The position numbers and the translations under genes were made by a program. Of a DNA stretch of 39,559 nt, positions 11,514-32,290 are shown one piece after another (position 1 is the first letter of the stretch; each line of letters starts with the position of its first letter). Source of the DNA: a virus; the IMG/VR virus record IMGVR_UViG_3300049043_000078, positions 1 to 39,559 of that record; one strand, 5' to 3'. The notes beneath the pieces were generated by a model that was not told the origin of the DNA, ran no database searches, and saw only the letters and a program-made list of their open reading frames with translations.

Positions 11514-11570
11514 AGGGTTTTATGGCGTTGAAGGGTTGCAGAGGTTTACACAAAAATTATTTAGTTGGTT

Positions 11571-11672
11571 TATATAAATCAATAAGTTACGTTTCGGATA
11601 CACTTGGGAATAATACTAGCATATAAATAATAGTCCACATACTATCCGAAACGTAAGTTATTGATTTATATA
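11571..11672. repeat. 102-bp element with 30-bp terminal inverted repeats, left copy
   Basis: The two ends (11571-11600 and 11643-11672) are inverted copies matching at 29 of 30 positions and contain TTACGTTTCGGATA. The 42-base middle is asymmetric, so orientation can be scored. This copy is opposite in orientation to the one at 12141-12240. No gene is inside. Confidence 0.85.
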
Positions 11673-11889
11673 GTGGGTAGAGGTCGGGAAAAAAATAAAA
11701 AAGTTAACAGGGCTTTCATGGGTTAACAGTTTGTGTCGATTTTAGTTTCGGCACGGTTGACCGAGTGCGCCTTTAAATCCGCATGGTGTATTAAATAGCC
11801 CCCTCAAAAAGGGGTCTATCACCAAAAAATAATAAGCGAGAGTGTTTTTAATTTTTAGAGGTTTTTTGGTATCAAGATGACAATGTATG

Positions 11890-11945
11890 ACTGTGTATGT
11901 AGTATGTGTATGTATGTGTATGTATATGTATGTATGTGTATGTAA
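11890..11945 (+). repeat. GTAT/GTGTAT simple repeat tract
   Basis: An alternating purine-pyrimidine tract of GTATGT and GTAT units (for example TATGTGTATGTATGTGTATG), located at the centre of the large inverted repeat. Such tracts can unwind or adopt unusual DNA forms. Its exact length is unreliable in this kind of read. Confidence 0.8.
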
Positions 11946-12140
11946 AGCCTGTAACATCGAAAAATTCAAAATAAATCCGCTTATTATTTTTTTAGATAGA
12001 TATACATATAGGGGGCTTTTTTCTACAAGCTGCGAATCTTGGCACTTGTGCGGTCAACCGCTGCAAAACTAAAATCGACACAAACTGTTAAGGTATGAAA
12101 GCACTGTTAACAAAACACTAAAAAATAAATATTTTACCCT

Positions 12141-12240
12141 TATATAAATCAACAAGTTACGTTTCGGATAGTATGTGGACTATTATTTATACGCTACTAT
12201 TATTCCCAAGTATACTTGGCGCGTAAGTTATTGATTTATA
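12141..12240. repeat. Repeat element, right copy (inverted orientation)
   Basis: Inverted version of the element at 11571-11672: it begins TATATAAATCAACAAGTTAC, then GTTTCGGATAGTATGTGGAC, and ends GCGTAAGTTATTGATTTATA. Its distal terminal repeat has decayed (CTTGGCGCGTAAG in place of TCCGAAACGTAAG). Confidence 0.8.
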
Positions 12241-12267
12241 TCAATAAGTATTTTAAATATTTACCCT

Positions 12268-12370
12268 TATATAAATCAACAAGTTACGTTTCGGATAGTA
12301 TGTGGAATATTATTTATACGTTAATAATATCGCTATCGCTATGATTAAATAAAGGAACTAACATCAAAAC
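12268..12370 (+). repeat. Half-element direct repeat A
   Basis: Begins with the same TATATAAATC ... TTACGTTTCGGATA block, then diverges into TTAATAATATCGCTATCGCT and GGAACTAACATCAAAA. The same order recurs at 12454-12557, so these two form a direct repeat with a period of about 186 bases. No gene is seen here. Confidence 0.8.
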
Positions 12371-12399
12371 TTGACTTTTAGTTTTGATTGTGTATCGGA

Positions 12400-12420
12400 A
12401 GGTTATACGCCGTATAACCT
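12400..12420. repeat. Palindrome copy 6
   Basis: Perfect arms AGGTTATACG and CGTATAACCT around C12410, lying between the two half-element direct repeats. No start codon follows at the usual distance on either strand. Confidence 0.9.
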
Positions 12421-12453
12421 TTAAACGGCTTAAAATATTGGATGGTTAGGTGG

Positions 12454-12557
12454 TATATAAATCAATAAGTTACATTTCAGATAGTATGTGGAGTATTATT
12501 TATACGTTAATAATATCGCTATCGCTATGATTAAATAGAGGGAACTAACATCAAAAT
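12454..12557 (+). repeat. Half-element direct repeat B
   Basis: Second copy of the half element, with TTACATTTCAGATA in place of the usual core, then the shared TATCGCTATCGCTATGATTA block and GGAACTAACATCAAAA. Present in the same orientation as the copy at 12268. Confidence 0.8.
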
Positions 12558-12590
12558 CACTAGATTTTAGATGTATTGAGTCAGTATAGG

Positions 12591-12620
12591 AATCAATAAC
12601 TTACGTTTCGGATAGTATGC
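12591..12620 (+). repeat. Short core copy of the repeat family
   Basis: AATCAATAACTTACGTTTCG followed by GATAGTATGC, the core of the repeat family alone, just upstream of a terminator for the minus-strand gene at 12692. Confidence 0.75.
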
Positions 12621-12639: not shown

Positions 12640-12669
12640 AAAAAAGCCACGCTTTTTCAGGCGTGGCTT
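12640..12669 (-). terminator. Intrinsic terminator of the 12692-13472 operon
   Basis: On the minus strand AAGCCACGC pairs with GCGTGGCTT (9 bp, 8-nt loop) and is followed by TTTTGTG. It lies about 20 bases after the stop at 12692. Confidence 0.85.
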
Positions 12670-12691: not shown

Positions 12692-12946
12692 TTAACAGTA
12701 CGCTTTTACGATCTCTTGTGCTAAGCAAACTAGCTCAGCTGGTGATAGCTCAGTTAACAACATTTCAAAAAGATCGTGGCACTTTGTTTTCGTATCACGG
12801 CTGAATGCCATACTTAAAGAAAGCTTAGCCGATTCAACATCCGTATTGGCTTTAGGTTTTACGATTGGTGTTTGTGGTGTTTGTGGTGTTTGTGGTGTTG
12901 CCTTTTTACGTCCGCTCACGCGGGCTTTTGTCGTTGCGATTATCAT
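12692..12946 (-). CDS. Basic protein with PQT repeats, unknown
   Basis: An 84-residue protein. The N-terminus is basic (TTKARVSGRKKA), followed by three tandem PQT triplets as a flexible linker (also a TGTGGTGTT repeat in the DNA), then a helical C-terminal part (LSMAFSRDTKTKCHDLFEML and SPAELVCLAQEIVKAYC). It is the last gene before a strong terminator. A DNA-binding role is possible from the basic tail but not shown. There is no clear Shine-Dalgarno site before the ATG at 12946. Confidence 0.6.
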   Translation of the reverse strand: MIIATTKARVSGRKKATPQTPQTPQTPIVKPKANTDVESAKLSLSMAFSRDTKTKCHDLFEMLLTELSPAELVCLAQEIVKAYC

Positions 12947-12980
12947 CGCCGAGTTTTTTCTATATCCGATTTTATATCGG

Positions 12981-13472
12981 CTATATCGCCAACAAGTGAT
13001 ACTTTTTAGTTAGAGATTTTTCAGTTTCTAACCGTTTTTGGGCGTCAATTAGACGCGCCTCTAACTCGCGCGCTTGTTTTCAAGATCCGATAATATAGAT
13101 TTAGCCTTATCACGGCTAAAATTTTTGATATTAAGACGTCCTGTTAAAATGCATTGTCGCATAATGCTTATGCGTGTTTTAACGCTAGATTCAACGTTAT
13201 TGACACCTTTTTTAACATAGTAATCATGCACTATTTCATGCGCGACTTTATAGCCGATTTCACCTTTTTTCAGGTGCACCTTTTACGGTTCCGAGCTGAA
13301 TCCCCAACGGGAATTCATGGTGCAAGCTTTCAAGCAATTTATCAACCCCGTTCGATTGATTGATCAATTGTGTTTGTAAATTATCTATAACATCTAAGCT
13401 AGACGTTAAGCTTGTTAAAGCCAGAGTTAGATCTAATGTTTGAGATTCAGTTTTTTGAGTATTCATAATCAT
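12981..13472 (-). CDS. Probable regulatory or DNA-binding protein, unknown family
   Basis: About 163 residues after two repairs (A6 run near 13265 and an A run near 13080). It opens MIMNTQKTESQTLDLTLALT, continues GIQLGTVKGAPEKKGEIGYK and AHEIVHDYYVKKGVNNVESS, then a stretch rich in Arg and Ile (TRISIMRQCILTGRLNIKNF) and a C-terminal coiled coil (QARELEARLIDAQKRLETEK). The alternative is two genes split at 13279. It has its own strong promoter and shares a two-gene operon opposite the late genes, the place where many phages keep a regulator (inference). No helix-turn-helix was assigned with confidence. Confidence 0.55.
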
Positions 13473-13860: not shown

Positions 13861-13931
13861 CCATATCACCCCCGCGTCATTAAAATAAATGCCCATGCAA
13901 AAAATTTTTGTAAAAAATTTTTATAAATCCC

Positions 13932-13937
13932 TATTAT
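13932..13937 (+). promoter_or_regulatory. Possible late promoter -10 box giving a leaderless transcript
   Basis: TATTAT lies six bases before the ATG at 13944, so transcription would begin at or next to the A of the start codon. A weak -35 (TTGTAA, 18-base spacer) lies upstream. No Shine-Dalgarno site precedes the start. Confidence 0.4.
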
Positions 13938-13943
13938 AGTAGT

Positions 13944-14617
13944 ATGAAACTTCAACAACGGTATAAAGCTATAACACCCATGCAAAATACTGAATATGAT
14001 GACATAGATGATACAGACTCATTTACGTTCACACCGCAAACACCCTTATCCCGTGCAGGAATAATGAGTAAATCTGCTTCTAATAAACTTGCGTTTCAAG
14101 ACAGTGAGTTTTTATCGGAGTTAGGAATGCCTTTGCCTGATATAACCCAAATGGAGAAAAATGAGGCATTAGACATATTTTTAAGTCAGCAGTCGTCCCC
14201 TTTAATCCCAACAACACCAGGTGCAGCACGTGCACTAGATAAGCTGCTCAAAAAGTTTGACTACACCCTTGCAAATTCTGCAAACAAAATGCGTCAGTAT
14301 GTGATGTTTAAATTGTTTGAGTTATCAGAAAATGAAGATCCTAAGATTGTGCTTAAAGCAATAGAAATGCTAGGTAGAGTGTCTGAGGTAGGCTTATTTA
14401 CAACACGTATAGAGGTAGCAACCTCTGATAAATCAACAAAAGAATTAGAGAAGGAATTAAGTTCGTTGATGAGTTCTTACTCGATTGGTGCTAAGTTCAC
14501 CTCTACTCGTGATGCAGAGTACAAAGAATTTCAGATGAGGAATTGAAAGGAGAGGTAGACGAAGAGGACGAGGAATATGAAGAAGAGGACGTAGACGACG
14601 ATGCAATCGACGAATAG
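13944..14617 (+). CDS. terS: Probable terminase small subunit
   Basis: About 224 residues after one shift near 14535. The first ~100 residues are acidic and probably disordered; the core (GAARALDKLLKKFDYTLANS, RQYVMFKLFELSENEDPKIV, EMLGRVSEVGLFTTR, STKELEKELSSLM) matches what I know of phage small terminases; the C-terminal tail is a run of Glu/Asp (EVDEEDEEYEEEDVDDDAID). The protein would bind the packaging site and feed DNA to the large subunit. Position immediately before the large terminase, overlapping it by 17 nt, supports this. The start codon lacks a Shine-Dalgarno site. Confidence 0.65.
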
Positions 14618-24662: not shown

Positions 24663-25675
24663 ATGGCTAATAGAGGCGCGTCTAAAGCAGCTAATACAAG
24701 AAACATTAGATCTTCTAAATCACGACAGTACGCAGCAGATAGGGGTAAATACGGTTCAATTTCTGATTAGAGGAAAGTACCCTTCTAAATTTATGCTGAC
24801 GGAAAAGGTGAGTACAAAGTACCCTCACAAGTTACTAAAGTAGACCTAGTAATAACAGACCTGCCGAGAAGGCAGTTAGAAATCATGTATTAGATAGAAA
24901 GGTGAGTACAAAGTACCCTCACAAGTTACTAAAGATAGACCTAGTAATAAAATACCTGCTGATGAAGGCAGTTATAAATCAACTAAAGGGTCAGGAATTA
25001 CGCTTAAAAACGTAACACCTTCAAAAATTAGTGAATCAAGTGGGCTAAGAAATGTTTTAAGTAAAGCAGGTAAAATAGGTTCTGCTATTAACCCAGAAGG
25101 AGCAGCTATGCTTCTTTCGGATACAGTTAGGGATGTATATGATAAGTACTAATAAACCTAACACGACTAATAAATCAGATCCTATTGTTGATGCCATTAA
25201 TGCTGAACCTGCCTCTAAAGCCTACTACTCAAGACAAAGTAGATAAAGCGTTAACGCCTAAAGGTGAAAGTAAAAAAGCACCTGTTGCTGTGATTAAGAA
25301 ACAATCTACAACGGTTGTTAAGCCTAAAGAGTCTAGTGATAGCCGTGCGCGTAGACAAGCCGCGTATGAGGACTATAAAGAAAATACTTGGAAGCCTTAT
25401 AACGAAAGTTTAGCAACAGCAAGCAGATGATGATAATGCCTATACTAAATCAGTAGCAGGTGAAGAAGATTCAGGTATGAAACGTGGTGGAAGAGTTGCA
25501 CGTAAGCCTATTAAAAAGATGGCGATGGGTGGCTCAATTTCTCGTACATCTGCATCTAAACGCGCAGATGGTTGTGCTTCAAAAGGACACACAAGAGGGA
25601 AGAATGCGATGAGACCTTGTAGAGGAATGGGGGCTGTAAACCCTAAAAAATTACCTAAACGGAAAAAATCGATGA
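24663..25675 (+). CDS. Basic repetitive virion-associated protein
   Basis: Start MANRGASKAANTRNIRSSKS after AGGAGG. The middle holds a ~94-base tandem duplication (24807 and 24901) coding GEYKVPSQVTK twice. Then SGITLKNVTPSKISESSGLR, TNKPNTTNKSDPIVDAINAE and a C-terminal KRGGR segment (GGRVARKPIKKMAMGGSISR, SKRADGCASKGHTRGKNAMR). About 335 residues with several shifts; it could be two genes split near 25150. The end overlaps the adaptor gene start if one A is removed from the A6 run near 25666. High Lys/Gly content suggests DNA contact in the particle. Confidence 0.5.
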
Positions 25676-29258: not shown

Positions 29259-30379
29259 ATGGCTTTAGTATTAGCGGATAGGGTTAGAAGAGCTCACGAC
29301 ATCTACGGGCACTACTGCTATTACTTCAGCAGGTGCAGCAACTGGGTTTCAATCGTTTTCTGCTGCTGTGGGAAACGGCAATACAACATACTATACAATA
29401 GCCGATCAGACAGGTAGTAATTGGGAAGTAGGGATGGGAACGTATACTTACGGCAGGGAGTTCTTTAAGTCGAGAATACTATATTGGCATCAAGTAATGC
29501 TAATGCGCTACGTAAATTTTACAGCAGGCACTAAAGATGTATTTGTTGACCTACCTGCTGAAAAAGCACTCTATTTAGATGCTTATCAAAACCTAATGTT
29601 AATTTAAGTAATACTATAACGACTATTTCTGGTATGTCATTAGGAATTACCTAATGTTTCAGTTTTACGCCGTTAGCAACTGTCCCTTTTGCTGTTGCAT
29701 CTAATCGCGCCTTTATTTACTAGTATCCCTCACTGAATCAGTAACGAGTAGTGATACCGTAGTAGGTACATTTACAATAAACAACGCTTTATCTGAATCA
29801 GTAAGAAGTAGTGATTACTGGTTCAGGCGTAGTCTAAGTGTAGTTATTTCCGAAGGAACAACATCAACTGATGCTTCCATACCCTTACAATAAACAACAC
29901 TTTATCCGAATCAATATCAAGTACCAAATTTCTGAGTACGGTACATTTACAATAAACAACACTTTATCCGAATAGATATCAAGTACCGATACCGTAATAG
30001 GCATAAATACAGCCTATAGTAATTTATCTGAGGCAGTAATAAGTGGTACGTCCCCAATCATCTGTTCTAGTCTATCAGGTGATATAACTGAAAATGTATT
30101 AAGTATAGATACTGAATTAACGTATGTACTTATGACAGCCTCTTTAACAGAGTCTGTAAATAGTATAGACACATATACCCCTTCTGTAACTTATTATGCT
30201 TTTTTAGACTCTGTTGTATCTTATTAGATAATTATACAGTACGGTATTTATGGAACTATGCGCAATTCAAACACCTAATTGGGGTACTGTATCAACAAGA
30301 TGCCAATATCACCTACTTGGGGGTACAGATTCTATTCAAACACCTAATCGATAGATATTACCTTTACATACCAGAGTAA
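29259..30379 (+). CDS. Tail fibre-like protein with SESV-type repeats
   Basis: Start MALVLADRV; repaired frames read ATGFQSFSAAVGNGNTTYYT, FTAGTKDVFVDLPAEKALYL and TPLATVPFAVASNRA. From 29720 to 30200 short repeats of LSESV-SSDTVVGTFTINN type recur at least five times, visible in the DNA as repeated ACATTTACAATAAACAACRC and TTATCYGAATCAGTA-type text. The last part has IQTPNWGTVST and another IQTPNW. About 373 residues with many shifts, so limits inside are uncertain. It could be two genes split near 30227. Confidence 0.5.
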
Positions 30380-30788: not shown

Positions 30789-32290
30789 TGAATAAAGAAA
30801 CTACGGCTATTCACTGCCGCCTAATGTGCCATTGAGTAGAGCCGCCCGAAATGGACAAACTCCCGAATTGATTACGGCGACAACATCTAGTGACGTGGTA
30901 CCTGTGCAAAACGTCTATCAAATGCTGGTGATGGTGTTTGGTGGCGGTGGGAATGGTAATGGTGCTACTGGTGGCAAGTACTATCGCTGAATTCTGCTGC
31001 TGCTGCTGGCGGATATGGCGGAGGCGGTGGCGGAGGCGGATTTATGCGATGGGGATTGTGGATGTTATACCTGGTCAAGATATTACCGACAATTACTTGT
31101 GGTGCTGCTGGCGGTACATCGTTCTTTTGGAAGTTTACTGACGGCAACGGGCGGCACTGCCGCGAGCATTTCATCAGCAGGTCAGGGCGGCACAGGTGCA
31201 GGTAATGCTAATTTAAGAAAATTTTTTACAGCGACTGGTGGGAGCTGGTGGTGGTACGTCTGGGGGCGCTGGTGGTGGCGGCGGTGGTGGTGGCGGCGGT
31301 GGCGGCGCGACCTGGTGGCGGCGGCGGTGCTGGGTCGCCCTATGGAGCTGGTGGAAATGGCGGTAGTGGTTATTACAGTGGCGGCGCTGGTGGTGGCAGC
31401 GGTGGTGGTGGTGGTGGCAGCGGTGCATCGTTTGGTGGCGGCAGTGTTTCTGGGTAACGCTGGAGCAGTGGTGGAAGTGCTACAACGCAAAATGTTGGCT
31501 GTCCTGGTGGCGGTGGATTTGGAGGTAATGGATCAGGTTATACCTGATATTTAGTAGCAATAATGGTTTTGGCGGTGGTGGTGTTTTTAAAGGGTTTTTT
31601 GGCACGGATATAACGGCGGCGGTTCGATATCGGCTGCCAACAGTTCATTTGCTGGTTATGGTTTAGGGGCAAGCGCCACAATCCGCTACTGATGTCGCGG
31701 CCGGGTACTTTGGGGTTCAAACGCCTCCGTTTTGTTTTGTTGGACAAGATGACCCCATTTTTTGAACTTCCTCATGGGAAATTGTCGGGTAGCGGCGGTG
31801 TTGGCGGCACAGGCTTCGGGAAATTTTCAATTTGAGAGTATGCTGGCGGCAATGGTGGTGGCGGCGGAGGGTCGAATAAGTGGCACAAGTTTATCTGGCG
31901 CAAATGGTGGTTTTGGTGGTGGTGGTGCTGGAGGCTGACTCAGGTGGCGTGACCAGCGGCGCTGGCGGTTTGTGCTCCAATCCAGGAAGCGGTGGCGGGA
32001 ACGTTAATACTTATCCAGGAATTGGTGGGTTTGGGGGTGGTGGCGGTTGTACCCGCTAGTGCTGGCAGTGGTGGTGGCGGCGGTGGCGGCGGTGGTGGTG
32101 GCGGCGGTGGCGGTGGAATGGGGTACGGTGGAGTTTATAGTGCTGCTGGCGGATATGGCGGTGGTGGTGGCGGTGGTGGCGGCGGTGGCGGCGCAGGTTC
32201 TGGAACCACGGCAGGTACTGGTGGTACTGGAAGTCCAGGTGGCGCAGGCGGTACAGGCGCCGTGATTTTATATTGGACGGAGGGTATCGA
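30788..32290 (+). CDS. Glycine-rich tail fibre/adhesin 1
   Basis: Opens MNKE, then SLPPNVPLSRAARNGQTPEL and VVPVQNVYQMLVMVFGGGGN. From about 30940 to 32260 the DNA is a mosaic of GGTGGTGGC, giving long poly-Gly and GGxG runs such as GGSGYYSGGAGGGSGGGG, ending GGTGAVILYWTEG. Glycine-rich domains of this kind form polyglycine helix bundles at fibre tips (known for S16-like adhesins) and set host range. About 500 residues; frames cannot be followed exactly because many shifts occur in the repeats. Confidence 0.65.

Follow-up and report, generated by a model that had tools for sequence, protein, structure and literature searches.

What function is served by a large, imperfect inverted repeat (IR) that occupies an intergenic gap in a phage genome? 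The IR occurs in a viral record of 39,559 bases, hereafter the window, the whole of which was analyzed. A survey of open reading frames (ORFs) in the window revealed frequent frameshifts that break genes, conserved ones included, which suggests a long-read record with residual indels. Alternative genetic codes were rejected as the cause of the broken ORFs, since they did not restore long ORFs and frameshifts gave the better fit. Genes left of about 13.5 kb lie on the minus strand, among them, at 1.2-3.1 kb, a gene for a polymerase of the DNA polymerase I type. From 13.9 kb onward the genes are on the plus strand and were assigned by similarity and position as terS, portal and other structural genes; the terS-like gene (13914..14546, plus strand) served as the landmark for synteny. 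The IR lies in a gap that is bounded on the left by minus-strand ORFs that end near 11.5 kb and on the right by a broken minus-strand gene designated gene B (12692..13472; ORFs 12692-12946, 13061-13279 and 13260-13472), which lies between the site and terS and is followed by a terminator-like hairpin (12644..12669, minus strand). No family match and no PDB fold match was found for gene B. As the first-pass annotation had described it, the IR is non-coding, with no convincing ORF across it and minus-strand ORFs on either side, and AT-rich (G+C of 33% versus 42% for the whole record). In the left arm of the window, the palindrome GGTTATACGNCGTATAACC occurs seven times, once with a mismatch (5345, 7520, 9382, 10089, 10476, 12401 and 13607), and looks like the operator of a phage regulator; one of the seven copies sits within the repeat field described below. 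The structural arm contains direct repeats and GGT/GGC-rich repeats at 24804-24981, 29761-29987 and 31000-32200.

The IR is real and far above chance. It had been annotated at 11571-12245 and was recovered by self-BLAST at 11569..12244 (676 bp, axis near 11907) as an alignment of 706 columns with 69% identity including gaps and an E value of 5e-63. The arm alignment has 256 identities in 365 columns, or 82% without gaps. The palindrome score of 336 compares with 52 for the best of 100 dinucleotide shuffles, and folding as a DNA hairpin gave -166 kcal/mol, compared with -60 in shuffles (z -19.9). No second strong inverted repeat is present elsewhere in the record. The left outer unit (11569..11672) is itself a palindrome with 45-nt arms and a 12-nt spacer, composed of two facing copies of a repeat termed X, and the right outer unit (12141..12244) is an inverted copy of it with 88% identity. 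The left inner arm (11703..11763, plus strand) carries GTTAACAG twice, at 11703 and 11722, and is 87% complementary to the right inner arm (12051..12111, minus strand), which has CTGTTAAC at 12104. This is the best inner block, and its 61 nt correspond to the best 61 bases of the first-pass annotation, where identity had been put at 85%; the 104-nt outer block is longer and equally good. Between the 61-nt block and the center lie weaker blocks, and the innermost arms (11824..11992) pair 11824-11863 with 11953-11992 at 80%. About 90 bases at the axis are unpaired. A TGTATGTATG tract at 11881..11947 (plus strand, 2 C in 67 bases) forms the center, and the GTAT-rich core that had been noted there maps to 11898-11944 and has hardly any C on the plus strand. 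A protelomerase telomere site was considered and rejected, as it needs a near-perfect palindrome without a loop, whereas the arms here are imperfect and the axis is unpaired.

A feature missed by the first-pass annotation is that the outer arms are copies of X, TATATAAATCAAYAASTTACGTTTCGGATAGTATG, which recurs to the right of the IR at 12268, 12454 and 12585 and is confined to 11577-12619 in the record. Each copy of X includes a perfect match to the consensus for integration host factor (IHF), WATCAANNNNTTR. The variant AATCAATAAGTTA is found in copies 1 (11577..11589) and 6 (12460..12472), both on the plus strand; AATCAATAACTTA in copies 2 (11654..11666, minus strand), 4 (12224..12236, minus strand, degenerate beyond the core) and 7 (12591..12603, plus strand); and AATCAACAAGTTA in copies 3 (12147..12159) and 5 (12274..12286), both on the plus strand. 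Seven of the nine consensus matches in the window thus fall within 1.03 kb (11577-12603), and two are found in the remaining 38 kb. A direct repeat on the plus strand (12268..12592; 12268-12400 and 12454-12592, 86%) prolongs the repeat field rightward beyond the IR. These are probable IHF sites, predicted from a match to a short consensus.

By protein comparison, the phage groups with HTVC023P-related podoviruses: its portal is up to 84% identical to those of IMG/VR contigs and 45-53% identical to those of HTVC023P and 023Pt_psg01. At the DNA level, no relative was recovered from phages, plasmids or viral contigs with the search sensitivity used, and 31 matches to a 17-mer in genome_contigs were dismissed as within chance expectation for such a pattern in 257 Gb. 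Two sets of loci were examined. The first was selected by portal, and the gaps at the corresponding position were inspected; it was there that the IHF consensus stood out, with 12 sites in 12.0 kb of gaps versus 17 in 228 kb. The TerS and gene B of the window retrieved no relatives as single queries; a TerS alignment used as the query did, and yielded a second, TerS-selected set that was profiled without picking gaps. IHF sites in this set peak sharply 1-3 kb upstream of terS. The interval 0.9-2.7 kb upstream has 52 sites in 49 loci, compared with a mean of 4.6 and a maximum of 9 in shuffles and 6 in a downstream control. The enrichment holds against scrambled-motif controls, bar one variant, TAACA, which is frequent because it matches TGTTA-type repeats. 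Among hold-out loci that share no sequence with the first set, the enrichment was 20.6-fold and was seen in 19 of 30 loci. An exact match upstream of terS is present in 33 loci in all and in 26 of the 44 loci whose upstream sequence exceeds 2.6 kb; the other 18 have no exact consensus match there. Sites within the region have extra bases in common (ATAAATCAATGACTTACG) that chance matches lack, and we conclude that one particular IHF-like motif, which IHF or another protein may read, is conserved, rather than random AT-rich matches. G+C dips at the site to 40%, compared with about 47%, and in nearly all loci another gene lies between the site and terS.

Around the IHF motif, most loci carry a phage-specific 8-mer in several copies and both orientations that is rare elsewhere in the same sequence (5.2 per kb inside versus 0.11 outside, 21 loci). 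The copies are often inverted across the IHF site, and many of the 8-mers are variants of AATGTTCC or AATGTTAC. In cultured HTVC023P (L119:4095-4190), five copies of CTAGGAAA lie around or beside TATATAAATCAATACTTC / ATAAATCAAT, immediately upstream of terS. In three relatives the repeats are TTATGCACA, which fits a DnaA box, with up to 10 in 500 bp; these arrays occupy the syntenic place (L042:1-500, with boxes about 23 bp apart; L044:890-1230; L047:1811), and in L042 and L044 the IHF motif is beside the array. Several unrelated-looking families are encoded at the level of gene B in relatives, one of which (L064:6646-7182) was modelled as all-helical and had no PDB match. Gene B clusters track repeat type, some going with TGTTC-type and others with TGTTAC-type repeats. 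Gene B may be what reads the repeats, although shared ancestry could also produce this association.

An IR at the corresponding place was also found in L123, L071, L084 and L049. The best palindrome exceeded 20 shuffles in 20 of 33 loci, with a slight margin in most; strong IRs occur in L123 (score 243, shuffles 36) and L071/L124 (67, 34). L123 is the closest locus by TerS (42%), and its 373-bp IR, at -2263 to -1891 from terS, is close to the position of the IR in the window (-2345 to -1670). Orthologous L123 and L071 have the right flank and a 21-base center in common but differ in their arms, so that the symmetry has here outlasted the sequence. A count of compensatory changes between them (66 of 137 pairs kept, versus 26-55 in slid pairings) is no more than suggestive, the arms being too poorly aligned for it to serve as proof. 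Comparison with related genomes, which the first-pass annotation had put forward as a check, thus recovered the IHF motif, the repeats and some IRs at the same place, but in many relatives the motif and repeats are kept while the IR is small or absent. The IR had been called unlike ordinary phage intergenic DNA; this is true in general, but loci of this kind are the norm in the present phage group. The IR of the window appears to be the form that a control site, present at this position in dozens of relatives, takes in this water phage. L123 and L071 hint that the long IR might itself be the working part, as a double origin of symmetrical and possibly hairpin-forming shape that would be kept while its sequence is replaced, but we think this improbable.

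A replication origin, a cruciform and a packaging or partition site had been proposed for the locus. The origin is the best supported of these, given the IHF consensus, the clustered phage-specific repeats, the AT-rich dip and the DnaA boxes in three relatives, and the cruciform or IR itself is not the feature that relatives share. We therefore favor, as the probable reading of these sequences, a DNA replication origin of the iteron/IHF type, of which the large IR would be a symmetrical elaboration or duplication. Iteron-type origins combine AT-rich DNA and an IHF-type site with clustered repeats and DnaA boxes, and IHF and DnaA aid the opening of the pSC101 and R6K origins (PMC5043065). The window has repeats at one locus, a near-symmetrical layout, adjacent AT-rich DNA and, by sequence match, the IHF consensus. 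The repeats would be bound by a phage-encoded protein, which may be gene B or a replication protein encoded outside this fragment, and IHF would bend the DNA and draw the repeats together. The central or neighboring AT-rich DNA would then open, and a replisome, for which the window encodes a DNA polymerase I-type polymerase, would be loaded, possibly bidirectionally. The case of phage CRP-902 is counted in favor of an origin: its packaging genes are homologous and its replication genes non-homologous (PMC10149686), and the 18 kb examined around its terS contained no IHF match. Counted against an origin are the 18 loci with no exact consensus match, the lack of a DnaA box in the IR of the window, the lack of a recognizable initiator in a record that is a fragment, gene B having no family or fold match, and a genome end at a comparable distance from terS in phage RW. 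GC skew, another proposed check, follows gene direction and does not switch at the site; the two are confounded, and skew is thus no independent pointer to an origin. Between 10500 and 12500 in the window, plus-strand GC skew is locally positive despite the minus-strand flanking genes, and relatives have the same local positive skew immediately left of the IHF motif.

The proposed origin resembles the lambda ori in its clustered initiator repeats, inverted symmetry and adjoining AT-rich DNA (PMC5043065). It resembles pSC101 and R6K in its iterons, IHF site and AT-rich DNA, along with DnaA boxes in the three relatives, but it has no recognized Rep protein, the phage repeats are often inverted across the IHF site, and the window adds a 676-bp IR. 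DnaA boxes are usual in plasmid origins and are not part of the lambda ori, which is located within the O gene, whereas the site in the window is intergenic and has IHF-consensus sites. The origins of SaPI and P4 satellites likewise have element-specific repeats flanking AT-rich DNA, but no primase-helicase initiator was found beside the site in the window fragment.

The main rival is a packaging initiation or cleavage site of the cos or terminal-repeat type, at which TerS would bind the repeats and IHF would bend the DNA. In the lambda cosB, an IHF site stands between TerS sites, of which there are three, one in inverted orientation (PMC4669245). The present locus resembles it in having an IHF site among short repeats of both orientations near terS. 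The parts of the proposed origin, minus the DnaA boxes, also compose a cosB of this type (PMC4669245). In favor of packaging, the site is 0.9-2.7 kb from terS in most relatives, and the Caulobacter phages RW and GB2A (L200:1-2940, L202:1-2940), the only ones compared that have recorded virion DNA ends, have 2940-bp terminal repeats whose boundary is 1.9 kb upstream of terS and has two GGCAC...TGCC repeats within about 125 bp. RW is distant, however (37% in portal), and has no IHF match at that boundary, and the distance to terS and the intervening gene set the present site apart from cosB. An origin is preferred for two reasons, namely that closely similar TerS proteins accompany unrelated repeats and that a packaging site would not be expected to have DnaA boxes, although the cases are few: in a single comparison, L071 and L044 have TerS proteins that are 75% identical and entirely different repeats, one set being DnaA boxes. 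We regard packaging as possible but considerably less likely than an origin.

A regulatory or partition hub, in which a phage regulator (e.g. gene B) would use the repeats as operators or centromere-like sites and control the minus-strand operons, would fit the association of gene B clusters with repeat type, and P1 parS uses IHF. We consider it unlikely, as the repeats occur at one place per sequence, unlike dispersed operators, the dispersed operator-like palindromes of the window have another sequence, and no ParA/ParB-like match was found among the 20 ORFs scanned in this fragment. A long structured non-coding RNA transcribed from the IR is not supported and very improbable. The minus-strand RNA has a folding energy of -285 kcal/mol (z -20.9), but any IR would give such folding; the plus-strand excess of G-U over A-C (19 to 5) comes partly from the GTAT tract and is opposite in L123 (8 to 16), no Rfam match reached the gathering score, and promoter-like sites were not above shuffles. 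Equally remote is the possibility that the IR has no function of its own and is a miniature mobile element or a product of fold-back in sequencing, to which the several copies of the palindromic units could point. X has no further copy in the record, searches of phages, plasmids and viral contigs did not recover it at the sensitivity used, and the flanks differ on both sides. The first-pass annotation had already judged the IR not to be a simple fold-back; in agreement, the divergence between the arms is too great for a fold-back in a record that keeps its ORFs open over hundreds of bases, and comparable IRs occur at the same place in other assemblies.

A replication origin thus remains our preferred reading of the locus. 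The conserved IHF-like motif and the fast-changing, phage-specific repeats around it provide a concrete place at which to test for the start of replication or packaging in these phages, and the same pairing allows one to ask what recognizes the repeats.
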